Virus record (IMG/VR): IMGVR_UViG_3300027573_000078
Span: 1-36,515 of that record
Length of the DNA: 36,515 nucleotides
Strand: one strand, 5' to 3'
Origin: a virus
Below are positions 1,387 through 17,128 of the stretch, one piece after another. Both the position numbers and the translations under genes were made by a program. The notes under the pieces were generated by a model. The model was not told the DNA's origin. It did no database searches and saw only the letters and a list, made by a program, of their open reading frames with translations. Position 1 is the first letter of the stretch. Every line of letters starts with the position of its first letter.

Positions 1387-1786
1387 CGAGCGGTTCCCTC
1401 CAGGAGCGCGCTTGAGGCATCGCCCCTACCCCGGAAGCCCCCTCGGGCTCAGACCCCCCCTTATCAGCCTTTTGCGCTCTGGAAAGTGGCGGAAAACTGC
1501 GGGTGTCGAACCAGGCATTCAGCCGGGCAGCCCACATCGAGAAGTACCGGTCCCACCCGCGGATGGTGGCCAGGGCTTCCGGCCGACATTGGGGGGCCAG
1601 AGCGGCGATGCGCGCGAGCAGGTAATCGCGCTCGACGTGGAACTCGCGCTCATGCCACCGGTGACCCTCGCGACGCTCCAGGATCCACTGCCGGGCGTCG
1701 TTCGTGAGGCGCCAGCGGTCGTCGAGCCGGATGTCGAGCGGCGGATCGATCGTGGCGCTGTCGTAGCCATAGGGTCTGGTGATCAC
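1364..1786 (-). CDS. hypothetical early phage protein (140 aa)
   Basis: Family not recognised. The first ~95 residues look folded and are rich in Trp, Arg and His (WRLTNDARQWILERREGHRW and a later GWDRYFSMWAARLNAWFD). The last 45 residues are polar and low in complexity. The start overlaps the stop of the preceding zinc-binding gene (ATGA at 1783-1786), and the end overlaps the start of the DUF6362-like gene by 23 nt, so it sits in a coupled operon. No membrane segment or signal peptide is visible. Confidence 0.6.
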   Translation of the reverse strand: MITRPYGYDSATIDPPLDIRLDDRWRLTNDARQWILERREGHRWHEREFHVERDYLLARIAALAPQCRPEALATIRGWDRYFSMWAARLNAWFDTRSFPPLSRAQKADKGGSEPEGASGVGAMPQARSWREPLGARDDPR

Positions 1787-2001
1787 GGCACAGCCTCCTG
1801 GGCGCTATCGGATAGCGCCTGGTCGGCGCGCCGCCGCTGGCGCACGATCACGACGCACTCGCGGTGCACGTAGCTGCCGGTGTCACCAGAGGCCGGCTCG
1901 GGCATGCCGCCCACCCAGCGCACCGGCCCGCCGCCGCGGCCGCCGCAGATCGCGCAGAAGCGCGCGAGCTCGCGCTTGGCGTGCGGGTCGTCGTACTTCA
2001 C
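1783..2001 (-). CDS. small Cys/His zinc-binding protein (72 aa)
   Basis: A 72-aa protein with a CAICGG motif (a CxxC pair) near residue 16 and a YVHREC motif near residue 45, which together could form a four-ligand zinc site as in HNH-like or treble-clef folds. The GTG start at 2001 forms a GTGA overlap with the stop of the upstream gene, as elsewhere in this operon. Its C-terminus is encoded by the second copy of the 19-bp palindrome (1801-1819). A zinc-finger role in DNA or protein binding is likely; nothing more specific can be read. Confidence 0.6.
   Translation of the reverse strand: MKYDDPHAKRELARFCAICGGRGGGPVRWVGGMPEPASGDTGSYVHRECVVIVRQRRRADQALSDSAQEAVP
1801..1819. repeat. 19-bp perfect inverted repeat, copy 2
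   Basis: GGCGCTATC, one central G, GATAGCGCC. It is identical in both arms to the element at 794-812 and lies about 1.0 kb from it in the same operon. This copy sits 16 nt upstream of the start codon of the next gene (1786), where a bound protein or an RNA hairpin could affect translation or transcription. Confidence 0.7.
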
Positions 2002-2615
2002 GCGCGCGCCTCCTCGGGCTGGGGCTCGAGCGTCGCGGCGCGGTGCTCGTCGGCGAGGTGGCGGAGCTTGTCGCTCATGCCGGCGCTGGGCTGGTGCGTC
2101 ATGCCGCGCAATACAGCCCCCTTGCGCGCGAAGGCTTCGAGATTGGCGCGGATCTCGACCATCGCCTGCGCCTGCAGGACATCGTCGCGCGGCGGCTCGC
2201 GCTTCGGGTCGAACGGCTCGCCGTGCTTCCATTGGTCGTAAAGCCGGTAAACCCCGTCCTCGTTCTGCGCCTGCTTGAGTACAGCCGCGGCCTCGTCGTC
2301 GCCCATCCAGACGCGCATGCGCCTCCACCACCCGAGACGAGTAAGGAACAACTGGCCGTTGCATGGATCGCTCGCGTCGTAGAGCGCATGGCGAGTGCCG
2401 GTCGTTTCCCGGTTCGCGGGCTGCAGAGCGATCTCGGCCGGCTTGGGTGGAACCGCGTGCGTCCAGCGCACCAAGGTCGCGCGCAGCGTCGCCTCGAGCT
2501 GCTCGCTCGAGAGGCCCACCAACACGTAGCGGTACTCGGGCTCCCACGCGAGGATTTGCTCGGCATGGCGAGGGAAGCGGCGAGCGAGCCCGCCCACGAA
2601 CTCGGCGGTGTTCAT
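1998..2615 (-). CDS. putative replication protein / helicase loader-like
   Basis: A 205-aa protein directly downstream of the replication-initiator-like gene, with an ATGA overlap. Its N-terminal half (FPRHAEQILAWEPEYRYVL, then LSSEQLEATLRATLVRW and PPKPAEIAL) follows the pattern of phage proteins annotated as replication protein P or helicase loader: an alpha-helical region ending in a PxPAEI motif. No ATPase Walker motif is visible, so a DnaC-type AAA+ loader is unlikely and a lambda P-like adaptor is the better guess. The gene order initiator-then-loader parallels lambda O-P. Assignment rests on position and weak pattern only. Confidence 0.5.
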   Translation of the reverse strand: MNTAEFVGGLARRFPRHAEQILAWEPEYRYVLVGLSSEQLEATLRATLVRWTHAVPPKPAEIALQPANRETTGTRHALYDASDPCNGQLFLTRLGWWRRMRVWMGDDEAAAVLKQAQNEDGVYRLYDQWKHGEPFDPKREPPRDDVLQAQAMVEIRANLEAFARKGAVLRGMTHQPSAGMSDKLRHLADEHRAATLEPQPEEARA

Positions 2616-3448
2616 GCGCGGCCCTCGATCTCGCGCGCGATGCGCTCGGCGTCGCTGAGCTTCGGCGGCGGCGCCTCGTCGTTCCAGCAGTCGCCCTCGA
2701 GCCAGCGCTGCGCGGACTTCGTGAACTTGGGATCTTGGTCTTCGCGGCTCAACGCATAGCGCTGAGCGCCGGCGAGAATCACCTCGTGCGAGGCGCGATT
2801 GCAGGCGTCGGCATAGGCACGCAGCCCGTCTTTTCGTCCGGTTTTCAGCGGGTAAGCGGTCCAGAACTCCCAGAAACCGCCGGCGCTCGGGTTCGGGTTC
2901 GGGTTCGGGGGCGAGCTCTCGCGCGGCAGCGAATCATGTGTCTCACCATTGAGACTTACTTCTCCCTGTCCCTTCAATTCTCCCTGTCCCTGTCTATTAA
3001 GAGGGTTTTCTCGGGGGACATGGTCATTTGTCCCCGGGGACAAATCTCGTTGTCCCTTCTTTTTCTCGCGCCACTTCTCGCGCCGTTCCTCGCTCTCCCG
3101 CTTCGATGTCCACTGAGACAGAACTACCTCGGCTACCACCTTGTGGTAGAGACGCCCATCGTTGCACTTGAACCATCCCCTAAGCGCCCCTTCCCTGATC
3201 TTCTGCCACGTCTTCACGTCGCGCCCGAGTTCGGCGAGCCGGCAAAGGTCGATGTCGTCGTCGGGCAGGCTGCCGGCGGGCACCTGGTCCTGGCTCCTGA
3301 GCCACAGCGTGACGCCGGCGCGCCATTCGGCGTCGGTCGCGCGCGAGTGGAAGGCCGAGCCGAACAGCCGCGCGCGATAGATTGGCGTGAAGGCGAAGTC
3401 CTTCAGGTCGGCGTCGGCAGGGACCAGCGGCGCGGGAAGATCGGTCAT
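2612..3448 (-). CDS. DUF1376-type phage replication initiator protein
   Basis: A 278-aa protein in three parts. The N-terminal ~115 residues resemble DUF1376/YdaU proteins: a block around WRAGVTLWLRSQ, then GSLPDDDIDLCRLAEL, then WFKCNDGRLYHKVVAEVV. These are winged-helix-like domains typical of phage replication proteins. Residues ~115-190 form a polar linker, with a short NP repeat encoded by three GGGTTC units (2889-2906). The C-terminal part (FWEFWTAYPLKTGRKDGLRAY to the RWLEGDCWND motif) is the usual tail of such proteins. DNA encoding the linker holds TGTCCCY repeats and a 20-bp palindrome, so the origin probably lies inside the gene as in lambda O. ATG at 3448 overlaps the upstream stop. 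Confidence 0.72.
   Translation of the reverse strand: MTDLPAPLVPADADLKDFAFTPIYRARLFGSAFHSRATDAEWRAGVTLWLRSQDQVPAGSLPDDDIDLCRLAELGRDVKTWQKIREGALRGWFKCNDGRLYHKVVAEVVLSQWTSKRESEERREKWREKKKGQRDLSPGTNDHVPRENPLNRQGQGELKGQGEVSLNGETHDSLPRESSPPNPNPNPSAGGFWEFWTAYPLKTGRKDGLRAYADACNRASHEVILAGAQRYALSREDQDPKFTKSAQRWLEGDCWNDEAPPPKLSDAERIAREIEGRA
2967..3057. other. candidate replication origin (iterons within the replication gene)
   Basis: Six copies of TGTCCCY lie within 91 bp: forward at 2967, 2985, 3029 and 3051, reverse at 3014-3020 and 3036-3042. The copies at 3029 and 3036 form a perfect 20-bp palindrome at 3026-3045 (arm ATTTGTCCCC). The block is visibly richer in A/T than its surroundings, with CAATTC, TCTATTAAG and CTTTTTCTC tracts. 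It encodes the linker of the DUF1376-type replication protein, the same position as the iterons in lambda gene O. Origin function is inferred from this arrangement. Confidence 0.5.
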
Positions 3449-3669
3449 GAGCCGGCCACCTTCCTGTTCTCGTTAGCCGCGGCTGCCACCATGCGATCGT
3501 GCGCCTCGATCGCATATTCCATGAGCCCGACCTCGACGGCATCGGCGACGGTCGGTCTTGAGCGGTCGCGGTTGGCGAAAACGGCGGCGGCCATATCGCG
3601 ATAGCGCCGCTGATAGTCGAGCCATAGGGACCAGAAGTCCGGCTGCTGGCGCAGTTGAACCACGCTCAT
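3445..3669 (-). CDS. small hypothetical protein between rusA and the replication gene (74 aa)
   Basis: A 74-aa, mainly alpha-helical protein (QQPDFWSLWLDYQRRYRDM, then AVEVGLMEYAIEAHDRM). It has ATGA overlaps with the RusA-like gene upstream (3666-3669) and with the replication gene downstream (3445-3448). No known family is recognised. The Trp/Tyr-rich first helix and lack of membrane segments suggest a small soluble accessory protein of the replication operon. Confidence 0.62.
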   Translation of the reverse strand: MSVVQLRQQPDFWSLWLDYQRRYRDMAAAVFANRDRSRPTVADAVEVGLMEYAIEAHDRMVAAAANENRKVAGS

Positions 3670-4067
3670 GCTGCGGCGACCCTCTCCTGCCCGCGCGCGA
3701 CCTCGAGCAGCGGCGCGCCGATCTCTTCGATCAGGACCACGGCGCGCGGGTTGCGGCGGTCGATGGCGTGCACGACGTGGAGCTCGCGACACTGCCGGTC
3801 GTTCCGATAGACGCGACCGGCCAGGCAATCGAGGATCAGCGACGGGTCAAGGTCGGGTCGCTCGCTCGCATAGAAGATCTGCATGTGCACGCGCAGCCGG
3901 CCGCCGAGCAGCGGCGAGAGGATAGGCACCTGCTTGGCGACGGCCTTCACGTAGGCGCGCGCCTCGGGCGACTTGATGAGCGAGTAGCGCCCGCCGATCT
4001 TGACGATCTGCGAGCGGTTGGACTTGCTCACCGTCTGCCCGAGGATTGTTCCCGCCCAGAATCGCAT
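3666..4067 (-). CDS. RusA-like Holliday junction resolvase
   Basis: A 133-aa protein matching the RusA family, which cuts Holliday junctions and branched DNA during phage recombination and packaging. The first half carries the basic substrate-binding strand region (residues ~11-47). The acidic core is RPDLDPSLILDCLAG followed by VYRNDRQ, giving Asp72, Asp74, Asp80 and Asp90 as metal-ligand candidates. The family usually has DLDN and a DD pair where this protein has DLDP and ND, so it is a divergent member. The gene starts 3 nt after the preceding stop. Length is close to the family norm of about 120 residues. Confidence 0.78.
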   Translation of the reverse strand: MRFWAGTILGQTVSKSNRSQIVKIGGRYSLIKSPEARAYVKAVAKQVPILSPLLGGRLRVHMQIFYASERPDLDPSLILDCLAGRVYRNDRQCRELHVVHAIDRRNPRAVVLIEEIGAPLLEVARGQERVAAA

Positions 4068-4070
4068 GGC

Positions 4071-4682
4071 TCAGTCGCCTGCGTGCGCCGGCGCGGTCTC
4101 CGTCGAGCCGGCCATCTTGGCGACGTTGTGGCGCTGTCCGCCCACCCAACCGCTATCCCATTTCAGGTTCTCGGGGCTGCCCTCGCCATAGGGGTTCGCC
4201 TCGCGGTTCCTGCCGGCGAGGCCTGCGTCGAGCCCCTCCTGGTTGGCCTGCGCGAGCGACTCCGGCGTCGCGATCGGCCCCTTCGCGGCGGCGCGCACGC
4301 TCGCCTCGCTGGCGTCGCGCTCGTTCGCCTGACGCGCGGCCTCGACCGCGTCCGCCATGCCGAGCAGGTTGCGATAGGTAAGGTAGTCCTCGAGGTCCAT
4401 CTGGGCGTCGAGCGGGTCCTCGCGCAGGTCCTTGCGCGCGCGCTTGAGAGCGGCGCAGTTGAAGCCCTCTTCCTTGAGCTTCTTCCACTCGGCGCGCAGC
4501 TTGCCGCGCGCGGTCTCGAGCGTGCCCTCGATGCGGTTGAGGCGCTCGTGCGCCGCGGCGACCTCTTTGCCTGTCCGGCGCCGATTGTCGCCTACCGCCT
4601 CACGCCGCTCCTCGCGCGCTTCTTCGGCGGCCACCTGATCGCCCGCTTCGGCGCGTCCGATCGCATTCCGCTTCTTTGCCAT
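4071..4682 (-). CDS. coiled-coil protein with a C-terminal ribosome modulation factor (RMF/CrpP)-like domain
   Basis: A 203-aa protein with two recognisable parts. Residues ~40-110 form a charged coiled coil (EVAAAHERLNRIEGTLETAR, then WKKLKEEGFNCAALKRARKD), similar in pattern to GapR/DUF2312 proteins that bind overtwisted DNA. Residues ~147-190 (EGLDAGLAGRNREANPY, later KWDSGWVGGQ) match the ribosome modulation factor/CrpP pattern GYxAGxxGRxxxxxPY followed by a WxxGW-type helix. RMF dimerises 70S ribosomes in stationary phase. The joined architecture suggests a nucleic-acid-binding regulator, but which target applies cannot be told from sequence. It lies immediately upstream of the RusA gene in the early operon. 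Confidence 0.65.
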   Translation of the reverse strand: MAKKRNAIGRAEAGDQVAAEEAREERREAVGDNRRRTGKEVAAAHERLNRIEGTLETARGKLRAEWKKLKEEGFNCAALKRARKDLREDPLDAQMDLEDYLTYRNLLGMADAVEAARQANERDASEASVRAAAKGPIATPESLAQANQEGLDAGLAGRNREANPYGEGSPENLKWDSGWVGGQRHNVAKMAGSTETAPAHAGD

Positions 4683-4685
4683 GGG

Positions 4686-4928
4686 TCAGCCTCCTGTCGT
4701 CTGTGCGGGCTTGCGGCGCGCGAGGCCGCGGCACTCGCCGCGCGCAATGCGCAGCAGCGCGAGCACCATCAGGAAGTCGCGCTGTACCTCGACCGACTTG
4801 CCGAGCACTTCCTGCGGATAGCGGCCAGCCTCGACCATCAGCTCGTGTTCGATGCGCTGGCACGCGGCGATCTCGTCGGACGTGAGGGAAAACCGCCGCC
4901 CGGCAGTCCGGCCTGCGCCTTCCACCAT
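4686..4928 (-). CDS. small hypothetical helical protein (about 80 aa)
   Basis: The credible part of this frame is FSLTSDEIAACQRIEHELMV to KSVEVQRDFLMVLALLRIAR, a helical segment that looks like real protein. The frame is open up to an ATG at 5039 (117 aa), but the extra N-terminal part is low-complexity Ala/Gly/Pro/Arg. It also overlaps a better-looking gene in another frame (4838-5044), so the internal ATG at 4928 is preferred. No strong ribosome-binding site helps decide. The gene ends 3 nt before the start of the RMF-like gene. Function unknown. Confidence 0.5.
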   Translation of the reverse strand: MVEGAGRTAGRRFSLTSDEIAACQRIEHELMVEAGRYPQEVLGKSVEVQRDFLMVLALLRIARGECRGLARRKPAQTTGG

Positions 4929-5044
4929 TGGGCGCGGTCCTGCAGCCGCGCCGCCTTGTGCAGGCAGCGCCACATCCTCCACCGCGCGAACCGCTGCCAC
5001 AGGGGCAGCAAGAGTGCTTTCATCCGGGCGCGCCCCCATTTCAC
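4838..5044 (-). CDS. small basic Trp-rich protein (68 aa), overlapping the next gene
   Basis: The GTG at 5044 overlaps the upstream stop codon (GTGA), the coupling style used throughout this operon. The product has an amphipathic basic/aromatic helix (LLLPLWQRFARWRMWRCLHK) followed by a helical segment and a polar tail. It shares about 90 nt with the following gene in a different frame, so one of the two could be wrong or both could be real overlapping genes. An internal ATG at 5023 is an alternative start. Family not recognised. Confidence 0.42.
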   Translation of the reverse strand: MKWGRARMKALLLPLWQRFARWRMWRCLHKAARLQDRAQWWKAQAGLPGGGFPSRPTRSPRASASNTS

Positions 5045-5370
5045 TCCCCTGCGTTTTCGAGATCGCGCTGATCGCGGCGCAAGACGGCCTGCACCAGGTT
5101 CACGAGCGCCGCTTCGGTGCTGGGATCGAGCGCCGCGTCCATCTGGACGAACCGCCGCCACTCGGCGGCGAGCTCGGGCTTGATCGCGCAGAGCTTCGCG
5201 AAGTAGGTCAGCGACAGCGCGTTCTTGCCCTGAAGCCAGTTCCGGGCCGCGTCGGTGTTGGAGCCGGCATCCTTGGCCAGTCGCTTCGCGTCGCCGCCGT
5301 AGAGATGGCGCAGCGTCGACGCACACCACGACGTGACGCCCTCGGTGCTATAGGCGGCTGCGGCGCTCAC
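5041..5370 (-). CDS. HTH-type DNA-binding protein (109 aa)
   Basis: A 109-aa protein with a segment resembling a helix-turn-helix: AKRLAKDAGSNTDAARNWLQ followed by NALSLTYFAKLC (residues ~28-65). This is the pattern of small phage/prophage regulators in which the second helix reads DNA. The GTG start at 5370 overlaps the previous stop (GTGA) and has GGGAG about 7 nt upstream; the frame is open further, but that extension is unconvincing. The C-terminal half is helical and acidic. It probably regulates transcription in the early operon. Confidence 0.6.
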   Translation of the reverse strand: MSAAAAYSTEGVTSWCASTLRHLYGGDAKRLAKDAGSNTDAARNWLQGKNALSLTYFAKLCAIKPELAAEWRRFVQMDAALDPSTEAALVNLVQAVLRRDQRDLENAGE

Positions 5371-5714
5371 GGGTTTTCTCCCGGCCGCGCCATGAAGTTT
5401 TCGCCGCCCTTCGTCTGTGTCATCGCGCATCGCTGCACCCCAATGTGGTTGGGATGCAGCGAGACCCGATGACGAAGAACAGCAATGGCCATACTGAGCA
5501 GCCTCCGGGCGTTCCCAGCGATCGCGGTGCTTTCCAGGGCGATGCGATCGAGGGAAGCCCGAGTGCTGCGGAGAGCGAACTCGTCGGACGAAAGGATGCG
5601 GCCCGGCACCGCCCAGAGCGGATCGGCCGGGTACTGCGGCGCGTGCTGGCGCGGCTCCAGCCGCGTGACTAGCGCCATCATGGGCACGAGACGGAGGGGC
5701 GCGGCGGCGGGCAT
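5367..5714 (-). CDS. hypothetical early protein (115 aa)
   Basis: A 115-aa protein with a helical centre (SSDEFALRSTRASLDRIALE, then NARRLLSMAIAVLRHRV) and a polar C-terminus. No family recognised. Its ATG at 5714 shares one base with the stop of the preceding gene (TGATG), and its stop overlaps the GTG of the next gene, so it is firmly embedded in the operon. The helix around LLSMAIAVL is only moderately hydrophobic, so membrane insertion is unlikely. Confidence 0.55.
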   Translation of the reverse strand: MPAAAPLRLVPMMALVTRLEPRQHAPQYPADPLWAVPGRILSSDEFALRSTRASLDRIALESTAIAGNARRLLSMAIAVLRHRVSLHPNHIGVQRCAMTQTKGGENFMARPGENP

Positions 5715-6226
5715 CAGGCGGCGTCCCGCTCCGCACGCTGCAGCGCTTCGGCCAGCGTCATCTCCGGATGCCGGCGCATGATCGGGCGCACGAAGTTGAG
5801 CAGCACCTGCTGCGCGTCGGCGCTCGCGATGTCCGCCTCGATTTGCCGCCGCAGCATCGCAAGGTGCGCTTCGAGGTCCGCGAGTGTCGCGAAGCGCAGC
5901 GCTACCCATTCAACCCGCTCGTCATCACTATCGGCGACCGGCACGGTGATTGCCGATGGCAGCTTCAGATGCCGGATCGGCAGCGGCAGATCCGGGAGCC
6001 TGAGCTGGCGCTCATCGTCCGGCGTCCACCCTCTCCCCATCATCTTTCGCGCCCAGGCGCCAATGGCCTCGCGCATCATCGCGCTGGCGGCGGCGGCGCA
6101 GAGGTCCGGGAAGCGCGCCATCACGCACTCGGTCACGACCTCCCTGTCGGCCCGACCACGCTCGAGCTGTTCGCCGAGACAGACGCGGACCGCGTCAACG
6201 AGCTGCGCGCGCGCGCTCTTTTCCAT
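5714..6226 (-). CDS. hypothetical early protein downstream of ParB-like gene (170 aa)
   Basis: A 170-aa protein, mainly helical, with a cysteine-containing centre (VVTECVMARFPDLCAAAASA) and an acidic C-terminal half (IEADIASADAQQVLLNFVRP). The start at 6226 has AAGGA about 10 nt upstream and overlaps the ParB-like gene by 32 nt. I do not recognise the family. Tight linkage suggests it acts with the ParB-like protein or the replication genes, but nothing in the sequence proves it. Confidence 0.6.
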   Translation of the reverse strand: MEKSARAQLVDAVRVCLGEQLERGRADREVVTECVMARFPDLCAAAASAMMREAIGAWARKMMGRGWTPDDERQLRLPDLPLPIRHLKLPSAITVPVADSDDERVEWVALRFATLADLEAHLAMLRRQIEADIASADAQQVLLNFVRPIMRRHPEMTLAEALQRAERDAA

Positions 6227-7049
6227 GGTGCCATTCCTTGGCGAAGTCGTTGAGCCACGCGAACGCGGCGGCGAGGTGCTGCTCGACGGTCTCGCGCTCG
6301 AAATCAGGGATCGCGCCGACATAGGCGGCGGGGGCAGTGGGCATCTCGGCAAGGGTCTGGAGCGCGCGCTCGAATTGCAGGCGCACGCGATCGGCTTCTT
6401 GCCGGCGCCTCTGCTCGGCGGGATCGATGTCGGTGTAGAACTTGCCGTCCGACGCGGCGACCGCGACGCCCTCGGCTTTCGCGCGCGCCCTGGCGACGGC
6501 CGGCGTCGGCAACTGGATGACCTTGCGCTGCTCCTCGTGCGGCTTCCGCGCGATCTTGGCGGCGGCATTGAGCGACAGCTCGCCGTCGATGACCTTGCTG
6601 ATCAGCTGGGCGACGCCGCGCTTTGCTACGGTGGCGGCGCGGTCGACGGACCGCTCGCTGACATTCAGAAGCTGCGCTGCCTGCGCCTGAGAAATAGCGC
6701 CAATTGGCGCCTTTTCAGATGGCCGTCCGACCTTCAGCGTCGCAATCTTCGCCGCGACCATGGCGCGCTGGCTCTCATCGAGATGCCGGCGGCGGAGGTT
6801 CATCGACACCACGAACGCCGGCAGCTCGGCATCGTCGCCATCGAAGATGCGCGTCGGCGGATCGTCGATCTCGAGCAGCCGACACGCGCGATAGCGGTTG
6901 CGGCCGTCGACGATGCGGCCGTCCCGATGCACGACGATCGGCTCGCGCAGCCCATTCGCCTCAATGTCGCGCGCGAGATCCGCCAACTCATGTGCGCCCA
7001 TCAGCGGAAATATCTCCGCCAAAGGATGCGCCGTTCCGGCGGCGCTCAC
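6195..7049 (-). CDS. ParB/sulfiredoxin-fold nuclease-like DNA-binding protein
   Basis: A 284-aa ParB-superfamily protein. The N-terminal ParB domain (residues ~8-100) shows the ANGLREPIVV motif and GRIVDGRNRYRA at residues 45-54, matching the GxxRxxA nucleotide-binding box, and later FVVSMNLRRRHLDESQRA, matching the ENLxRxxLxxxE region. A helix-turn-helix follows (ISQAQAAQLLNVSERSVDRA). The C-terminal 130 residues are helical and variable. Phage proteins of this form act as CTP-dependent DNA-binding or regulatory proteins, sometimes with nuclease activity. There is no ParA partner, so plasmid-type partition is unlikely. Coupled by ATGA to the preceding small gene. A second ParB-like gene lies at 11554. 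Confidence 0.8.
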   Translation of the reverse strand: MSAAGTAHPLAEIFPLMGAHELADLARDIEANGLREPIVVHRDGRIVDGRNRYRACRLLEIDDPPTRIFDGDDAELPAFVVSMNLRRRHLDESQRAMVAAKIATLKVGRPSEKAPIGAISQAQAAQLLNVSERSVDRAATVAKRGVAQLISKVIDGELSLNAAAKIARKPHEEQRKVIQLPTPAVARARAKAEGVAVAASDGKFYTDIDPAEQRRRQEADRVRLQFERALQTLAEMPTAPAAYVGAIPDFERETVEQHLAAAFAWLNDFAKEWHHGKERARAAR

Positions 7050-7306
7050 GGCTCGTCGTCCGCGAAATCGCTGAGCTTCGGAATGGCGCTCTCGCGGAAC
7101 CGAATCGAGGTGCCGACCTGGCTGAGCATCGCGTGCGGCAGGCGGCCGTCCGCGTCGCGAGCGGCGTCGTCGCGGGCGATGAGCGCAGCGCGCTCGGCGG
7201 CGGTGGTCGTGCGCGGCACGCCGCCGCAGCGGATGGGGCGGTCGGGCACGCTCGGGCCGAGGCGCCGCCAGGTGGCGCGGATCTTCGCGCGGGCGACGTC
7301 GCGCAT
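7046..7306 (-). CDS. small hypothetical protein, head of the replication operon (86 aa)
   Basis: An 86-aa protein with a basic N-terminus (RDVARAKIRATWRRLG) and an acidic C-terminus (AIPKLSDFADDEP). Family not recognised. A GGAG motif lies about 11 nt before the ATG. Its stop overlaps the ParB-like start (ATGA), so the two are co-translated. It is the first confidently called leftward gene after the cro region, with only the doubtful frame at 7415-7750 between. Confidence 0.55.
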   Translation of the reverse strand: MRDVARAKIRATWRRLGPSVPDRPIRCGGVPRTTTAAERAALIARDDAARDADGRLPHAMLSQVGTSIRFRESAIPKLSDFADDEP

Positions 7307-7638: not shown

Positions 7639-7750
7639 TCGCGCTGGGCGCAACTAAGAACACCCGCGCCACCTCGGCCAGGCGGAAGCGGCGCTTGTCT
7701 CGCGGCGGCGGCGGCGCCGGCGGCTCGGCCCAGAGGATGCGCGCGCTCAT
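7415..7750 (-). CDS. possible small protein coupled to cro-like gene (doubtful)
   Basis: The ATG at 7750 overlaps the cro-like stop codon (ATGA), and the first ~40 residues (RRFRLAEVARVFLVAPSAIK among them) look like genuine protein. Beyond about residue 60 the translation turns into Arg/Ser/Ala/Pro low complexity where it runs antisense to the BssS-like gene. Either this is a real leftward gene with a disordered tail overlapping its antisense neighbour, or only a remnant. Low confidence. Confidence 0.3.
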   Translation of the reverse strand: MSARILWAEPPAPPPPRDKRRFRLAEVARVFLVAPSAIKHVRTRAFRVRELLPLSAVAFRQAGRTERRSSRAAVSAGSSPTAPPPTSRTAGPPSRSRRGATRSPSRRGGSA

Positions 7751-8007
7751 GCGGCGGCGTCCGCCGGCTGCGCGGCCGCAGGGTCGGGCGGGGGGTCGAA
7801 GAAATCGGCGGGGGTGAGATCGATGCCGCGCTCGCGGGCGGCGCTGAGAAGGGCCCGCTGATGTCGCGTCGGAATCTGCCCGTCGCTGCCGCCGCGCTCG
7901 CGTGGGTAGCCCCAACGGTGAACGGTGCTGACATCGAGCCCCAAGAGCCCCGCGACGGCCCTAGGGCCGCCGAATTTCGAGACGATGCGTTCGGCGCTGG
8001 TATTCAT
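7747..8007 (-). CDS. Cro/YdaS-like HTH transcription regulator
   Basis: An 86-aa protein beginning with a compact helix-turn-helix: ERIVSKFGGPRAVAGLLGLD then VSTVHRWGYPRERGG, followed by IPTRHQRALLSAARERGIDL. This matches Cro/YdaS-type phage regulators, in which a VSxVxxW recognition helix is followed by a helix with an IPxxHQ start. It is divergent from the cI-type gene and heads the leftward operon, the position of cro in lambda. A good leftward promoter (8044 to 8016) overlaps its operator. Predicted transcription starts only 1-2 nt before the ATG, so the mRNA may be nearly leaderless. The Pro/Ala/Asp tail (residues 72-86) is probably disordered. Confidence 0.8.
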   Translation of the reverse strand: MNTSAERIVSKFGGPRAVAGLLGLDVSTVHRWGYPRERGGSDGQIPTRHQRALLSAARERGIDLTPADFFDPPPDPAAAQPADAAA

Positions 8008-8015
8008 GGCTGCGG

Positions 8016-8044
8016 ATATTGCGATATCCGCAATTTAAACGCAA
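8016..8044 (-). promoter_or_regulatory. leftward (cro) promoter
   Basis: Reading the minus strand: -35 TTGCGT (8044-8039), a 17-nt spacer, and -10 CAATAT (8021-8016). The expected start of transcription is near 8009, immediately before the cro ATG (8007). The operator at 8019-8033 lies between and over these boxes, so bound repressor would block the promoter. Confidence 0.55.
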
Positions 8045-8092
8045 GGCCGCGATTGCGTTCTTATCAATGGCCGGTCGTTGCGGTTTCCGCAA
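8019..8092. promoter_or_regulatory. cI/cro operator region (TTGCG-N5-CGCAA sites)
   Basis: The 96-bp gap between the divergent cro-like and cI-like genes holds two perfect 15-bp inverted repeats, TTGCG-N5-CGCAA, at 8019-8033 (centre ATATC) and 8078-8092 (centre GTTTC). A half-conserved site, TTGCG-TTCTT-ATCAA, lies between them at 8053-8067. Three spaced operators between divergent repressor genes is the classic lambdoid switch layout. Related sites recur at 9700-9738. Confidence 0.72.
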
Positions 8093-8103: not shown

Positions 8104-8772
8104 ATGAGTGTTGATTGGATAAAGCAGGGCCTGGAGCGAACCGGCAGAAACCAGGTGCAGCTCGCCGAGCTCCTCGGGCTTGACCCTGCGGCCGTGTCAC
8201 GCCTGCTCAAGGGGCGGCGGCAACTCAAGGCCACCGAGGCCGACACGATTCGAAAATGGCTCGAGACGGCCACCGAGCCAGAGCCCGCCGGCCCGCCGGC
8301 CGGGATGAAGCCGGCGCCCCCCCGCCTTCCCGACAACCCGCCCCCTGACGCGGTGATCCCCGGCGCCCGCCCACTGCGCGGTGGCCCGCGGTCCCTGCCC
8401 ATCTACGGTGCCGGCCAATCCGGCCCCGAGGGCTTCCTCAACATCGAGCCCCAGGACGCGATCGACTGGACCTGGATGCCGGCCGAGCTGCAGGACGTGC
8501 GCGGCGCGTTCGCGCTCTACGTCGACGGCGACAGCATGACCGACGCCGGGCTGCCCGCAGGCACGCTGGTCCACGTCCATCCGCACCGCCGGCCCAGGAC
8601 CGGCCAGAACTGCGTCATCGTCCTGCGCTCGAGCGGCGTGTTCATCAAGCGCTACGTCGGCCAGCGTGGCGGCAAGCTCGTCTACGAGCAATCGAACCCC
8701 AAGAAAGAGGGCGACTTCCCCCTGGCGGACGTTGCCGCCCTCTACCTGATCACGTCCGCGGTGTTCCCGTGA
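8104..8772 (+). CDS. cI-type prophage repressor (HTH + S24/LexA-like peptidase)
   Basis: A 222-aa repressor. Residues 1-57 hold an HTH (GRNQVQLAELLGLDPAAVSR). A proline-rich hinge (57-95) leads to a C-terminal S24 peptidase fold. The likely self-cleavage site is Ala103-Gly104 in PIYGAGQSG, the catalytic serine is Ser144 in VDGDSMTDAG, and the lysine is Lys182 in VFIKRYVG. All LexA-type catalytic elements are present, so induction by RecA/SOS is expected. The ATG at 8104 is chosen because it follows GGGG and starts the HTH; the frame is open further upstream, but that would run through the operators. It should keep the lysogen by binding the TTGCG-N5-CGCAA sites. Confidence 0.9.
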   Translation: MSVDWIKQGLERTGRNQVQLAELLGLDPAAVSRLLKGRRQLKATEADTIRKWLETATEPEPAGPPAGMKPAPPRLPDNPPPDAVIPGARPLRGGPRSLPIYGAGQSGPEGFLNIEPQDAIDWTWMPAELQDVRGAFALYVDGDSMTDAGLPAGTLVHVHPHRRPRTGQNCVIVLRSSGVFIKRYVGQRGGKLVYEQSNPKKEGDFPLADVAALYLITSAVFP

Positions 8773-9699: not shown

Positions 9700-9742
9700 T
9701 TGCGTTTTTCGCATTGACATAGATTGAGCTTTCCGCAATTCT
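9700..9742 (+). promoter_or_regulatory. rightward promoter with two repressor-type operators
   Basis: A perfect -35 TTGACA (9714-9719), a 17-nt spacer and a weak -10 AATTCT (9737-9742) precede the zinc-ribbon gene. Two sites like those at the cI/cro switch overlap it: TTGCG-TTTTT-CGCAT (9700-9714) and TTGAG-CTTTC-CGCAA (9724-9738), 24 bp apart. The same repressor probably shuts off this promoter, and with it the recombination/integration operon, in the lysogen. Confidence 0.6.
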
Positions 9743-10439: not shown

Positions 10440-10467
10440 AAAAAGCCCTCCCCGCGGTGGGGAGGGC
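10440..10467 (-). terminator. intrinsic terminator oriented leftward
   Basis: A perfect 9-bp stem GCCCTCCCC/GGGGAGGGC (10445-10453 and 10459-10467) with loop GCGGT. The run of five A at 10440-10444 becomes a T-run after the stem on the minus strand, so it terminates leftward transcription. On the plus strand there is no T-run, so it would not stop the rightward operon. No leftward gene ending here was found. Confidence 0.65.
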
Positions 10468-10490: not shown

Positions 10491-11549
10491 ATGAGTACCG
10501 TAGTGAAGCGCCGGGTCGCCGGCAAGACCCTGATCGGCATGGCCATCAGCGAGACCGCCTTTATCGGCGTATCCACGCTCAACCAGCTCATCACCTTCGG
10601 CCTGGTGCAGCCGAGCTATAACGAGCACGCGAAGGCGAAGGAGCTGCGCCGCGATCCCACGCTCTCCAAGGCGCATAGCTTGCGCGAGACGGTGCAGCGC
10701 CGCTTCGACACCCCGCGCATGAACCGGGCGCACCACTACTCGGACTATATCGAGCGGCTCAACAAGGGCGAAGCACTGGGCGGCACGCCACCGATCACGC
10801 TCTATTGCTACATCGCGGGGCACCTCAGCGAGGATGAAGCGTCGCTGACGCTGTCGGCATCCGCACCGCTGGTGAACCTCGACGGCGAGACGCAGACCGA
10901 GGCGCGCTTCCTGCTGCGGGAGCGCGACGAAGCAACCGGCGACGATGCCCTCCCCTTCGTGCTCTACCACGGCATCGACGCCAATCACGCCGGCACGATC
11001 ATGCACGACTTCAACAAGTACGCGCATCCGGTCAAGGAGCGCGCGGTTGCAGTGCTCAACTCCAACGGTCCGCTTACCAAGGCGATCAACACAAGCCTTG
11101 CCGTGACCGAGATCAATCCGATCTACGTCAACCGGTTCGGGCTCACGCCGGGCAAGAGCCAGATGGTTGCTTATCAATCGCTGCTCGCAGGAGCGGCGGG
11201 GGCTGCGGTCGGGTTCAAGGCGCTCCCGCAACTGGGAACGCAGATCGCACGGCTCAACAATGGCGCGGGTCTGAATGCCGAGGATGTGCAGCGCTTCCTG
11301 GTGCCGGCGCTCGAGCTCGCCAAGGCGCATCCCGACATCGGTCGCAGTCGCGCCGCGGTTTGGGCGTTGATGGGCGCCGTCGCGAAGGATCACGGCAAGC
11401 TGCCGACCGAGACGGAGTGGATGGCGGCGGCTGCCGCCTACGCTGTGAAGATTGAAGGGATGCGCGGTCCCAAAGCGTCGCGCCTGAAGGAACAGGCCGC
11501 GTTGAAGGTGATGGGCATCGCCATCGCCGCCACCGCGGATGCGAGCTGA
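10491..11549 (+). CDS. DndB/DGQHR-like protein
   Basis: A 352-aa protein that I assign to the DndB-like (DGQHR) group by pattern. The core is APLVNLDGETQTEARFLL (DGETQTEAR at residues 131-139, where DndB has DGQHRxxA), followed by LPFVLYHGIDANHAG and MHDFNKYAHPV (171-181), the DndB-type FxxxNxxxxPV helix. DndB regulates phosphorothioate (dnd) modification genes, and the DGQHR fold is distantly related to ParB nucleases. The key His-Arg of DGQHR is not conserved, so activity may differ. AAGGA lies ~10 nt before the ATG. It is followed after 4 nt by a ParB-like gene. No dndA/C/D/E genes are in the window. Confidence 0.6.
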   Translation: MSTVVKRRVAGKTLIGMAISETAFIGVSTLNQLITFGLVQPSYNEHAKAKELRRDPTLSKAHSLRETVQRRFDTPRMNRAHHYSDYIERLNKGEALGGTPPITLYCYIAGHLSEDEASLTLSASAPLVNLDGETQTEARFLLRERDEATGDDALPFVLYHGIDANHAGTIMHDFNKYAHPVKERAVAVLNSNGPLTKAINTSLAVTEINPIYVNRFGLTPGKSQMVAYQSLLAGAAGAAVGFKALPQLGTQIARLNNGAGLNAEDVQRFLVPALELAKAHPDIGRSRAAVWALMGAVAKDHGKLPTETEWMAAAAAYAVKIEGMRGPKASRLKEQAALKVMGIAIAATADAS

Positions 11550-11553
11550 TCCG

Positions 11554-12564
11554 ATGCAGTCTCTCACATTGACGCCAGTTCCGAACGTGGCTGGCATGTC
11601 GGGCGCAGGACCGGACGACATGAACCGCCGCGCACGTGACATCAGGTCGGTCCCGCTCACGACGATCGACATGGACGAGGGGGCGCGGTTGCGCCCGCTC
11701 GATCCTGCGAAGGTCGCCGAGCTCGCCGCCAGCATCAAGACGCACGGCCTGCTCCAGCCGATCGGCGTGCAGATCATCAAGAGCGGCCGGTTCACGAGCC
11801 GCTACAGGCTGATCTACGGCGCGCATCGCCTGGCGGCGGCAATCCTGTTGAACGAAGAAAACCCGCGGCACGAAGTCATCGCTTGCATGATCTATCCCGC
11901 GAACATGCCAGCCACGTCCATCCAGATGGACGAGATGGTGGAGAACCTGCACCGCAAGGAGCTGACGCCCCCGGAACGTGCCAGCCACACCGCGCGCTAC
12001 GCCGGCCTGCTCAAGAAGGCCGGGCTAGTTGACAACGCCAAGCGTAAGGGAGGCGTCGCCAAAGCTGCATTGCACAGTGACAGGGCAATGCAGCCCGCGC
12101 CGGGCGCAGCGTCCAAACCCTCGGTTACGGAAAAGATCAGCCGCGAGCTTGGCATACATCGCAACGCGGTGCAGGGCCGCGTGGCGCTCGCAACGAAGCT
12201 CGCAGCGCGCCAGGGCGTCGTGGCGACGCACAAGACTATCGAGAGCATGAGCGGCGACGAGCTGATCGCGATCGGCGACGCCGCGATCCTCGAAGCCCAG
12301 CGCAAGCGCGAGAAGGCGGTGGCCACCGGCAAGTCGGACCGCAACACCGACCCGATCCAGCCGGCAAAGCCGACCGAGAGCACCGTGCGGCTCGACGTCG
12401 TCGACCTGCCGGCCAAGATCGGGCCCTGGGTGCGACGGCGGTTCAACGACAAAACCAAGCATCTGTCGATCGCGGTGATCAAGGCAACGCGCGATGTCTT
12501 CAACGCGATCATTACCGAGATCGAGACGACCGGCACCTGCCGGCTGGAGGACACGAATGGCTGA
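11554..12564 (+). CDS. second ParB-like protein, paired with the DndB-like gene
   Basis: A 336-aa ParB-superfamily protein. The N-terminal ParB domain (residues ~30-140) shows IKTHGLLQPIGVQI, then YRLIYGAHRLAAAILL (GAHR at 89-92, the GxxR nucleotide-binding box), and MVENLHRKELTPPERASHT, the standard ENxxRxxLxxxE helix. A helix-turn-helix follows (SVTEKISRELGIHRNAVQGR). The C-terminal third is helical with a conserved-looking end (IGPWVRRRFNDKTKHLSIAV). Phage and plasmid proteins of this form bind DNA, some with CTP-switch or nuclease activity. ATG at 11554 is used; an ATG at 11539 would overlap the previous gene. Linkage suggests the pair acts as a unit. Confidence 0.78.
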   Translation: MQSLTLTPVPNVAGMSGAGPDDMNRRARDIRSVPLTTIDMDEGARLRPLDPAKVAELAASIKTHGLLQPIGVQIIKSGRFTSRYRLIYGAHRLAAAILLNEENPRHEVIACMIYPANMPATSIQMDEMVENLHRKELTPPERASHTARYAGLLKKAGLVDNAKRKGGVAKAALHSDRAMQPAPGAASKPSVTEKISRELGIHRNAVQGRVALATKLAARQGVVATHKTIESMSGDELIAIGDAAILEAQRKREKAVATGKSDRNTDPIQPAKPTESTVRLDVVDLPAKIGPWVRRRFNDKTKHLSIAVIKATRDVFNAIITEIETTGTCRLEDTNG

Positions 12565-12801: not shown

Positions 12802-13094
12802 TGCCTGACGGCTCCCGCGTCCTCCTGCCGCTCGACGAGCTTCTCGAGCGCGCGGCCTCGCGCAATTGGACCGAGGCGAAAGCCCGCGTCGCGCTGCGCA
12901 AGTGCGGCGGCTGCGACCACTACCACGGCGGCGCCATCCCCTATTGCGAGGCCTTCATGCTCGCCGTGCGCGTCAACACGCCCGCGGCGACGTGCCCGCA
13001 GTTCAAGCCGGCGCTCGACGATGACGGAGACGACGGCGACGAGATCGGCGAGGGCGACGTTGGGAGCGCCGGCATGACGGGAGAGACGGAATGA
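12801..13094 (+). CDS. four-cysteine small protein upstream of the exonuclease (97 aa)
   Basis: A 97-aa protein with LRKCGGCDHYHGG, IPYCEAF and ATCPQFKP: four cysteines and two histidines placed as a likely zinc (or Fe-S) site. The acidic C-terminus (DDDGDDGDEIGEGD) suggests a protein- or DNA-mimic-like tail. It begins with a TGATG overlap with the previous gene and ends overlapping the YqaJ-type exonuclease start by 4 nt. An accessory role in the recombination module is inferred from linkage. Confidence 0.58.
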   Translation: MPDGSRVLLPLDELLERAASRNWTEAKARVALRKCGGCDHYHGGAIPYCEAFMLAVRVNTPAATCPQFKPALDDDGDDGDEIGEGDVGSAGMTGETE

Positions 13095-13996
13095 GCGACC
13101 GCATGAATTTCATCGGCGGGTCGGAGGTGGCCGCGCTGTTCGGCCTGCATCCGCACCTCACGCCCTTCGAGCTCTGGCACCGCAAGGCCGGCTCGCTCCC
13201 CGAAGCCGACCTGTCGGATAACGCGGCGGTGCAGGCCGGCATCTTCCTCGAGCCCGCGGTCGCGGCCTGGGTCGCCGACCGCACCGGCTGGAAGATCCAG
13301 AAGGTGCGCCGCCAGGTCGTGCATCGGGACCTGCCGTTCCTGCGCGGCTCGCTCGATTACGAGATCGTGGCGCACGAGCGCGGCGCTGGCGTGCTCGAGA
13401 TCAAGACCACGGACAGCTTCGTGGCGCGCCTGTGGGACGACGGCGAGCCGCCGATCCACTACGAGCTGCAGCTGCAGGCCTATCTCGGCATGACCATGCG
13501 CGACTGGGGCGCGATCGCGGTGCTCGTCGGGGGCAACGATCTGCGCGTCTTCGAGCGCGAGCGCCGCCCGCTCGCCATGGCGAAGATCGAGCACGCCGCC
13601 GCGGGATTCTGGGCTTCCGTCCAGGAAGGGCGCGCGCCGACGCCGGACTTCCGCGTTGACGCCGATGTCATCGCGGCACTCTACCGCTCTGCGCAGAAGG
13701 GCAAGCTGGTCGACCTCACGGGCGACAATTACCTCGTCGACCTCTGCGCGCGATGGATCGAGAGCGGCGAGCGCATGCGCGCAGCGGATGACGAGCGCGA
13801 CGCGATCAAGGCCGAGCTGCTGACCAAGATCGGCGATGCCGCCGTGGCGCTGTGCGGCGACTACAAGATCAGCGCCGCCGAGATCGCGGCGCAGCCCGAT
13901 CGCGTCATCACCGCCGAGATGCTCGGGACCACAATCAAGGGTCGTTCTGGCTATCGCCGCTTCACAATTTCCACCTCAAAGAAGGATGCCGCCTGA
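13091..13996 (+). CDS. YqaJ-type viral recombinase/exonuclease
   Basis: A 301-aa member of the YqaJ/lambda-exonuclease group. It starts with the family's FIGGSEVAALFGL motif and then shows the nuclease residues in order: Glu54 in FLEPAV, Asp89 in RGSLDYEI, Glu103 and Lys105 in VLEIKTTD, and Gln127/Gln129 in YELQLQAYLG. The enzyme digests one strand of double-stranded DNA to give 3' tails for annealing. It is directly coupled to the RecT gene (TGATG), forming the usual exonuclease plus annealing-protein pair for phage recombination. Confidence 0.88.
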   Translation: MSDRMNFIGGSEVAALFGLHPHLTPFELWHRKAGSLPEADLSDNAAVQAGIFLEPAVAAWVADRTGWKIQKVRRQVVHRDLPFLRGSLDYEIVAHERGAGVLEIKTTDSFVARLWDDGEPPIHYELQLQAYLGMTMRDWGAIAVLVGGNDLRVFERERRPLAMAKIEHAAAGFWASVQEGRAPTPDFRVDADVIAALYRSAQKGKLVDLTGDNYLVDLCARWIESGERMRAADDERDAIKAELLTKIGDAAVALCGDYKISAAEIAAQPDRVITAEMLGTTIKGRSGYRRFTISTSKKDAA

Positions 13997-15285
13997 TGGC
14001 CACCGCCCCGAAGGATGCCGCCCAGGCGCCGGCCGCACAGCTGCCCACGCAGCGCCGGCCGAGCGAGATCGACACCGTGCGCATGGCGCTCGAAAAGCTG
14101 CGCCCTCAGCTGCAGATGGCACTGCCCAAGCACCTGACCGTTGACCGACTGCTGCGTGTCGCTATCACCGCGGTGCAGACCACACCGAAGCTGCTCGAGT
14201 GCGATCGCAAGTCGCTGTTCGGCGCGATCATGACCTGCGCCCAGCTCGGGCTCGAGCCCGACGGCGTGCTCGGCCAGGCGTACCTGGTGCCGTTCGGCAA
14301 TCGGGTGCAGTTCATCCCCGGCTACAAGGGGCTGATCGCGCTCGCGCGCAACTCGGGCGATCTCTCGTCGGTGATCGCCCACGAGGTGCGCGAGAACGAC
14401 GATTTCGGGCATTGGGACGAGCGCACGAAGGCCTACCGGCTCGACTTCGCCCACTCCGAGCCACCGACGCACAGTTTCGATTTCCGCAAGCTCCGCGGCG
14501 ACGTGATGGCCTTCTATGCCGTCGCGCGCTTCAAGGACGGCGGCGTGCACTGGGACGCGATGGCGCGCGCTGAGGTCGAGATGATCCGCGACCGCTCGCA
14601 GGGCTACAAGGCGTTCAAGGCCGGCAAGACCAAGGACAACCCCTGGCACACCGACTTCATCGAGATGGGCAAGAAGACGATGATCCGCCGCATCTCGAAG
14701 TATTTGCCGATGTCGGTGCAGAAAGCCGCCGCGATAGCCGATGCCTACGACACGGGTCGGCACGCGCAGCTCGGGCCGGCTGGCGAGGTGGTGATCGACG
14801 CTGCCGCGATCGACGCCGGTAGCGATCAGCAGCAGATCGAGAAGCCGAAGGGCTCGAAGCTCGATCGCTTCGAGAAGAGCGGTGTCGATCGGGAGACCGG
14901 CGAGGTGCTCGACGGGGCGCTGGCCGCCAGCGACGGGAAGCCCGCCGCGGAGAGCGAGCAGGGCGGCGCAGCGCCGCCCCACCCGACGCAGGAAGCGGCG
15001 GCCGACCAGGGCACCGCCAGCGCCGGCCACGATGCCGACGGCGTCGTGCACGAGCCGCCGGTGCCGACGCTCGCGGCACCTCCCGAGGACGCCTCGGTGA
15101 AGGCATGGACCACCTATCGCGGCCTGCTAATCGAGGCGGTCGCCAAAGCGCCGTCGCGGATCTGGCTGATGGCTTTCGAGTTGGGCAACGAGGATGGTCT
15201 CAAGGTGCTCGAGCGCGATTTCCCGTCGCAGCACGCGATGGTGAGGAAGGCCATCGCCGCGCGCGCGGCCGAGCTGGCGGATTAG
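13996..15285 (+). CDS. recT: RecT-family single-strand annealing protein
   Basis: A 429-aa protein. Its first ~280 residues match RecT: LTVDRLLRVAITAVQTTPKL, then SLFGAIMTCAQLGLEPDG, AYLVPFGNRVQFIPGYKGLI and KKTMIRRISKYLP, all signature segments. RecT binds ssDNA made by the partner exonuclease and pairs complementary strands. It is longer than E. coli RecT (~270 aa): a Glu/Ala/Pro-rich linker (about 290-375) connects to a C-terminal helical domain (KAWTTYRGLLIEAVAKAPSR onward). This is an unusual extra module that may recruit SSB or replication proteins. The ATG shares a base with the exonuclease stop. Confidence 0.9.
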   Translation: MATAPKDAAQAPAAQLPTQRRPSEIDTVRMALEKLRPQLQMALPKHLTVDRLLRVAITAVQTTPKLLECDRKSLFGAIMTCAQLGLEPDGVLGQAYLVPFGNRVQFIPGYKGLIALARNSGDLSSVIAHEVRENDDFGHWDERTKAYRLDFAHSEPPTHSFDFRKLRGDVMAFYAVARFKDGGVHWDAMARAEVEMIRDRSQGYKAFKAGKTKDNPWHTDFIEMGKKTMIRRISKYLPMSVQKAAAIADAYDTGRHAQLGPAGEVVIDAAAIDAGSDQQQIEKPKGSKLDRFEKSGVDRETGEVLDGALAASDGKPAAESEQGGAAPPHPTQEAAADQGTASAGHDADGVVHEPPVPTLAAPPEDASVKAWTTYRGLLIEAVAKAPSRIWLMAFELGNEDGLKVLERDFPSQHAMVRKAIAARAAELAD

Positions 15286-15500: not shown

Positions 15501-15794
15501 GTGCCACGCCGCCATCACCTACCACCCAACATCCCGCCGCGCGGCCTGGCGCGCGACCAGGCGGCAGCGTACTGCGGCGTGTCCGGACCCACCTTCGACA
15601 TCGCCGTGGACGCGGGCGTGATGCCGCCAGCGGCGAGGTGCTTCGGCTCTCGCCTGGTGTGGGATCGCAAGGCCCTCGATCTTGCCTGGGACCGGCTCAG
15701 CGGGCTTGATAAGCCCCCGGCCGACGATGCCGAGTCGGCCCTGCGGAGGGCCATTGATGCTCGAAAGAATGCGGTACGTCACGAAGCGGCATAA
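15501..15794 (+). CDS. AlpA/excisionase-like HTH protein
   Basis: A 97-aa protein with RGLARDQAAAYCGVSGPTFD followed by a wing-like SRLVWDRKALDLAWD, the MerR/AlpA-type winged helix found in small excisionase-like proteins encoded just before integrases. Such proteins bend DNA at att sites to direct excision and may regulate int. The start is GTG with GGAAGGG about 5 nt upstream. It overlaps the integrase start by 38 nt, which suggests coordinated synthesis of Xis-like protein and integrase. Confidence 0.7.
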   Translation: MPRRHHLPPNIPPRGLARDQAAAYCGVSGPTFDIAVDAGVMPPAARCFGSRLVWDRKALDLAWDRLSGLDKPPADDAESALRRAIDARKNAVRHEAA

Positions 15795-16776
15795 CCGGGG
15801 CGGCGGCGAGCGCCATTACTGGCAGCGCCCCGGTCAACCGCTCACCCGCCTCCCCGACGATCCGGTGGCGCGGTTCACGCTGCAGAAGAAGCTCAACGAG
15901 GCAGCCGATCGCAAGGACGGAGACGTCCTCATCGAGGGCTCGATCGGCTGGGTGATCCAGCGCTACCGGGCGACCGACCGCTTCAAGAAACTCGCGCGCG
16001 GCACGCTCAAGTACTACGGCCGCTATCTGCGCGAGGTCGAGGATCTGGGAAAGATGCTGCCGTTCCGGGCGTTCGATCGCCGCATGGTGGTGGATTTCGT
16101 CGAGACCTTCACGAAGAAGGGCGAGCAGCGGAAAGTCGCTGCGGTGCTGCGCAACCTGTTCGACGTCGCGCTCTACGAAGGCGTCGCCGTCGAGAACCAC
16201 GCGACGAAGCTTCGGCTCACCACGAACCAATCGCGCGAGGCGATGTGGAGCGACGGCGCGATCAAGGCGTGGCTCGCCGCCGCCGAGGGGCATGCGATGG
16301 GCGCCGCGATGACACTGGCTTTCCGGCTGTTGCAATTCACCGCGCAGCGCCCTGGCGACGTGCTCGCGATGACGTGGTCGGCCTGGAATGGCGACCTGAT
16401 CCGCGTGCGCCAGCAGAAGACCAAGAAGCTGCTCGACGTGCCGGCGCACTCGGAGCTTAGGGCGATCCTCGAGGAGGCGCGCCGCGGCGCCGACAGCCTG
16501 ATGATCGTGAGCTATCGCGGCCGCGCTGTGAGCTATGCCGCGATGAACCGCGCGTGGCAGTCGATCGGGCTGGCATCAGACACGGCGGAGCTGCAGGCGC
16601 GCGACCTGCGCCGCACCGCATGCGTCCGCATGTGTGAGGCGGGCGCGACGGAGAAGCAGATCGCCGCCGTCACCGGACATTCGATCGATGAGACCCGGCA
16701 CATTTTGGAGACGTACCTGCCGACGACCACGGCCATGGCGCGCGCCGCAATCGAGCGGCTGGAGACGAAACGATGA
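15757..16776 (+). CDS. int: tyrosine integrase
   Basis: A 339-aa tyrosine recombinase. Residues ~55-150 form the SAM-like core-binding domain. The catalytic domain has Arg198 in AQRPGDVLAM, a lysine in QQKTKK (221-224), Arg285 in ARDLRRTACV, His308 in VTGHSIDET and the nucleophile Tyr320 in ILETYLP. The usual HxxR His is Arg282 here, as in many alphaproteobacterial integrases with RDLRRT. The N-terminal ~50 residues could be the arm-binding domain reading the TCTAACGCG repeats downstream. The ATG at 15757 follows GGAGGG; an in-frame ATG lies four codons later. It would recombine attP with a host attB. Confidence 0.92.
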   Translation: MLERMRYVTKRHNRGGGERHYWQRPGQPLTRLPDDPVARFTLQKKLNEAADRKDGDVLIEGSIGWVIQRYRATDRFKKLARGTLKYYGRYLREVEDLGKMLPFRAFDRRMVVDFVETFTKKGEQRKVAAVLRNLFDVALYEGVAVENHATKLRLTTNQSREAMWSDGAIKAWLAAAEGHAMGAAMTLAFRLLQFTAQRPGDVLAMTWSAWNGDLIRVRQQKTKKLLDVPAHSELRAILEEARRGADSLMIVSYRGRAVSYAAMNRAWQSIGLASDTAELQARDLRRTACVRMCEAGATEKQIAAVTGHSIDETRHILETYLPTTTAMARAAIERLETKR

Positions 16777-17094: not shown

Positions 17095-17128
17095 AAGGCG
17101 CCCGCCGGGTTTCCCCGGCGGGCGCCTT
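17095..17128. terminator. strong bidirectional intrinsic terminator
   Basis: A perfect 15-bp stem, AAGGCGCCCGCCGGG (17095-17109) and its complement (17114-17128), with a TTTC loop. On the minus strand the stem is followed by TTTT, making a good terminator for the leftward late (tail) operon. On the plus strand the T-run is short, but the stem could still stop transcripts coming from int. It lies exactly where the two transcription domains converge. Confidence 0.8.

Follow-up and report, generated by a model that had tools for sequence, protein, structure and literature searches.

A DndB-superfamily protein encoded directly ahead of a ParA-less ParB in a phage operon points to an uncharacterised DNA-handling unit

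The record is a 36.5-kb virus with the gene layout of a temperate siphophage, and it was analysed over its whole length (36,515 nt, hereafter the window). Genes for the terminase, portal, head protease, major head protein, tail and tail fibres are all encoded leftward. A rightward operon holds two genes, here termed P1 and P2, and ends with genes for a YqaJ/RecE exonuclease, a RecT annealing protein and an integrase. A very strong terminator-like hairpin was identified on the minus strand (17095-17128), between the integrase gene and the structural genes, which run leftward. The features of the early region are the following.

6195-7049, minus strand: second ParB-like protein, in the leftward (cro-side) operon (phrog_21315, 1e-26; ParB_N, 23.0 bits)
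7747-8007, minus strand: Cro-like protein (P22_Cro, 20.0 bits, under the cut-off)
8019-8092, no strand assigned: putative cI/cro operators, two exact TTGCG-N5-CGCAA sites (palindrome search)
8104-8772, plus strand: CI-like repressor (HTH_3 and Peptidase_S24)
9700-9738, no strand assigned: putative P_L-side repressor operators, two sites with one mismatch each (palindrome search)
10440-10467, plus strand: leader hairpin with a 9-bp stem, directly 5' of P1 (conserved in a relative)
10491-11549, plus strand: P1, DndB/DGQHR-superfamily protein of the DGETQ clade, 352 aa (ORF and homology)
11554-12564, plus strand: P2, ParA-less ParB-type protein with Box I, GAHR, ENLHR and HTH (PF02195, phrog_3264)
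13091-13996, plus strand: YqaJ/RecE-like exonuclease, in the same operon as P1 and P2 (PF09588, 1.5e-20; phrog_434, 7e-66)
13852-15285, plus strand: RecT-like annealing protein (phrog_148, 3.7e-74)
15682-16776, plus strand: integrase (phrog_1, 5e-28)

The ORFs of P1 and P2 are consecutive and show a strong coding GC3 signal (0.84). That of P2 spans 11539-12564 (341 aa), and its upstream ATG at 11539 would give an 11-nt overlap with P1; the second ATG, at 11554, leaves a gap of 4 nt and agrees with the N-terminus of the relative in phage contig L002. Thus, the 4-nt gap given in an earlier note on this DNA holds if P2 starts at 11554. That note had also placed the pair in an early operon, which fits a repressor-controlled operon ahead of RecE, RecT and the integrase, and it had reported a second, leftward ParB-like gene, which the phrog_21315 match bears out; the ParB_N score of this product is just under the cut-off. 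The family phrog_21315 is itself annotated as of unknown function.

Between cro and cI lie two exact copies of the palindrome TTGCG-N5-CGCAA (at 8019 and 8078); two more copies, each with a single mismatch, precede the rightward operon (at 9700 and 9724). Both site pairs are also present in the relatives L006 and L007, and in L006 the second pair lies about 110 bp 5' of P1, which is the first gene of the operon there. Shuffled sequences gave a mean of 3.3 such sites for the window and about one per relative; against these counts, the weight lies in where the sites fall, namely in both promoter regions and in two lineages. We infer that the rightward operon resembles the P_L operon of lambda and is repressed in lysogens. 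The leader hairpin lies between the operators and P1, is preceded by AAAAA and is terminator-like on the minus strand. It is kept in a relative (L007, 2170-2198) with one compensatory base pair. The conserved hairpin and the place of P1 directly after the operators in L006 would suit a protein that controls its own operon, as DndB represses dnd (PMC4507180), with P2 functionally separate and its adjacency simply operonic. We regard such autoregulation as quite unlikely, as the operon is already under a CI-type repressor that has operators of its own, and the order of a ParB-fold protein followed by a ParB recurs in many phages.

P2 is readily placed, and the earlier reading of it as a ParB-type protein stands. 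It exceeds the PF02195 ParB_N cut-off (30.0 bits versus 26.3), matches phrog_3264 (1e-28) and carries all three CTPase boxes, namely Box I, GAHR (the GxxR box) and ENLHR, as well as an HTH. Its best PDB matches are Noc, a CTP-type ParB and KorB. On these matches P2 is a ParB_N protein of the ParB CTPase family, and it is predicted to bind CTP and to undergo the sliding-clamp switch. Like the orphan ParBs (Noc, KorB and phage phrog_3264), it has a ParB_N domain and complete CTPase boxes followed by an HTH; unlike them, it is encoded directly after a second predicted ParB-fold protein, and its C-terminal region is its own. A search for inverted repeats in the GC-rich DNA around the pair turned up no convincing candidate for a parS site. 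As the earlier note had stated, the window lacks ParA and dnd modification genes: profiles for ParA (PF13614), DndC and DndD had no match anywhere in the record. The ParABS partition reading was dropped because there is no ParA.

P1 is far more divergent. A direct family search gave no match in Pfam, PHROGs, NCBIfam, PADLOC or PDB, so that its assignment to DndB lies beyond a standard search; PF14072 had no match in the window even at an E-value of 10, and a search of genome contigs with P1 alone found nothing. The best matches in a plasmid collection are actinobacterial proteins, one of them annotated as DndB, and these score above the PF14072 threshold (29.1), at 50.9 and 41.4 bits. A profile built from the actinobacterial relatives, with P1 left out, gives P1 50.0 bits versus at most 4.8 bits across 2000 shuffles. 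An independent route began with PF14072 matches collected from 61 genomes of a single family. A profile started from a canonical DGQHR protein, then widened to take in those matches, gives P1 28.2 bits, with DGETQ (residues 131-135) under DGQHR and HDFN (ending at N175) under the FxxxN motif. P1 also has a QR pair at residues 69-70; a QR pair and an FxxxN motif have been described for DGQHR domains (PMC4619093). In alignment A4, Q69-R70 and N175 are invariant, and the F of FxxxN is M in the phages. The intermediate-profile scores, the motif alignment and the QR pair place P1 in the DndB/DGQHR superfamily, as a divergent protein of a clade that has D[GA]ETQ as its signature.

The DGQHR pentapeptide is absent from P1, with DGETQ in its place. 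The earlier note had called P1 DndB-like with a degenerate DGQHR motif. Profiles uphold the DndB call at the level of the superfamily, but not the word degenerate, since DGETQ is common to the clade and also occurs in its actinobacterial members, and thus is a shared variant and not decay. That DGETQ is invariant in alignment A4 is due in part to the search pattern; independent support comes from an unbiased PF14072 sample, in which the actinobacterial clade has the motif, and from two plasmid proteins that were found without the pattern. Nucleotide binding by ParB-fold proteins requires the arginine of the GxxR P-motif, and its replacement by alanine abolishes binding, according to a survey of ParB-fold NTPases (PMC12704722). 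The corresponding residue of P1 is Gln, and we predict that P1 has lost nucleotide binding. Compared with DndB (PF14072, TIGR03233) and the DGQHR domain (TIGR03187), P1 shares an alignable core with DGETQ at the position of DGQHR, the QR pair, an FxxxN equivalent and, probably, membership of the ParB/Srx superfamily; unlike them, it falls under every family threshold, lacks the GxxR arginine and is partnered with a ParB, with no dnd genes. The AlphaFold model of P1 is weak (pLDDT 49) and gave no significant structural match, the best Foldseek probability being 0.35, to the ParB-like protein PadC. Values of dN/dS against the L002 relatives are 0.28 for P1 and 0.38 for P2; both genes are under purifying selection.

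The cellular relatives of P1 bear on the question of defence. A gene of the type I methyltransferase family is near the DGETQ-type DndB-like gene in 30 of 38 actinobacterial loci; typically it lies beside a gene for an N6 methyltransferase that carries a helix-turn-helix at its N-terminus, and this gene is divergent from the DndB-like one. A DrmD-like helicase is encoded in five of the 38 loci, and a GmrSD_N protein in one. From their gene content, these look like restriction or defence loci. The actinobacterial contigs L010-L046 (for example, L031 at 1404-7200) may hold an uncharacterised defence or modification locus. The earlier note had suggested that the pair interferes with phosphorothioate-based defence. 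This was rejected: DndC and DndD are absent, nothing ties the pair to dnd genes, and the cellular relatives instead adjoin adenine-methyltransferase genes, sometimes with DrmD. A broader form of counter-defence would have the pair neutralise a restriction- or methylation-based host defence early in infection, with P1 mimicking or competing with a DndB-like component. The methyltransferase-linked relatives are the only thread that sustains it, and no phosphorothioation is involved. Lambdoid phages keep counter-defence genes in the P_L-type operon, and the position of P1 and P2 is in keeping with this. Neither protein has a PADLOC match, however; the phage has no DndC or DndD, and ParBs of the P2 type occur in many unrelated phages. 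We consider counter-defence unlikely.

The earlier note proposed a search for the pair in other phages and plasmids. Close copies of P1-P2 occur in only one further phage lineage (L002 and L003, 99.9% identical in P1), and an analogous DGQHR-ParB pair occurs in many phages. Sampling from the P2 side gave 62 viral ParB loci, a subset of which have a DGQHR protein immediately upstream; in Microcystis phage Mvi-Yong1342-1, a DGQHR protein likewise lies directly 5' of the ParB. These DGQHR proteins belong to phrog_5931, a family annotated as of unknown function. A ParB directly adjoins phrog_5931 on the same strand in 29 of 80 loci, a proportion that is inflated because the queries were originally chosen beside a ParB and some contigs are duplicates. 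The ParB is downstream in 28 of the 29, usually with a spacing of 4 nt or less or an overlap. The gene order and spacing are strikingly regular. ParA was found on none of 14 contigs with the phrog_5931-ParB pair. In one phage contig (L086, 2900-6495), a DGQHR protein, a ParB and a second DGQHR/ParB-like protein are encoded within 3.6 kb.

An AlphaFold model of phrog_5931 from 50 sequences has a mean pLDDT of 93. Noc and ParB account for all nine top-ranked PDB matches (probability 0.51-0.99, E-values from 0.0066, none below 0.001), and sulfiredoxin, SbnI and Osa rank lower. Matches in viral libraries include ParB/Sulfiredoxin proteins, and in profile comparison the GQHR of phrog_5931 aligns with the ParB GAHR box (E 0.0016, with low probability). 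From the model, the library matches and this alignment, phrog_5931 is assigned to the ParB/Srx fold. The phrog_5931-ParB pair therefore resembles P1-P2 in gene order, tight spacing and a probable ParB-fold first protein. It differs in that phrog_5931 keeps DGQHR, the other neighbouring genes are not the same and there is no profile similarity to P1. Profile comparison gave no signal between the P1 family and either phrog_5931 or ParB. Homology of P1 and phrog_5931 is not demonstrable at this level, and the shared slot may be a coincidence of two ParB-fold families.

In other phages, a pair of this kind precedes replication-initiation proteins; in this phage, it shares an operon with RecE, RecT and the integrase. 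Both settings would suit a role in DNA processing, in which one or both ParB/Srx proteins nick DNA and aid replication or recombination with RecE and RecT, and DNase activity has been described for the ParB/Srx proteins Osa and GmrS (PMC5512222, PMC4619093). We think this improbable, as the operon neighbours are not constant among phages (replication initiators, a methyltransferase, recombinases) and P1 does not have the active-site arginine of the superfamily.

The analysis points to P1-P2 as an uncharacterised phage DNA-handling unit, not a DNA-sulfur counter-defence, and a regulatory or recombination role, as earlier proposed, is possible. The reading that we favour, tentatively and at somewhat short of an even chance, is an early lytic, ParA-less ParB-fold module in which a CTP clamp and a nucleotide-blind partner act on phage DNA. 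It draws on the firm identities of both proteins and on observed homologies, motifs, operon position, selection and recurring pairing, and extends to a presumed physical interaction of P1 with P2 and a presumed target. Once the repressor is relieved, the P1-P2 operon would be switched on in early lytic growth. P2 would load at a site on the phage DNA and become a sliding clamp held by CTP, and P1, without the arginine that grips nucleotide, may partner P2 as a loader, lock or anchor. As a pair they would govern how transcription, replication or recombination gains access to the phage DNA, much as plasmid KorB does with KorA. The analogy has a limit, in that KorA is not known to be a ParB-fold protein, which is the fold predicted for P1. 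By analogy with the KorB-KorA mechanism of plasmid RK2 (PMC11790492), the pair would combine a ParB-type clamp with a second DNA-binding protein, outside partition. That phages in general carry a heteromeric clamp, in which a ParB-fold protein (DGQHR or nucleotide-dead DGETQ) serves a ParA-less ParB CTPase as loader, lock or anchor on phage DNA, is a wider and doubtful proposition.

The ParB-fold NTPase survey deals with fusions, with orphans and with a DndB-like protein that binds ATP and GTP, and describes orphan ParB-fold proteins as common in phages, with roles open (PMC12704722). No mention of a tandem pair occurs in the passages of the survey that were consulted, nor was a description found in the other literature searched; this is weak evidence of novelty, since subscription papers lay outside the search. 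Tandem ParB-fold modules appear to be undescribed in the literature searched; their parts are of known kinds. The recurring gene pair provides a candidate partner for many orphan ParBs, phrog_5931 is assigned a ParB/Srx fold, and a DndB clade is identified in which nucleotide binding is predicted to be lost. If the wider proposition holds, a two-protein ParB-fold machine of this kind would be a heteromeric clamp system not described before.
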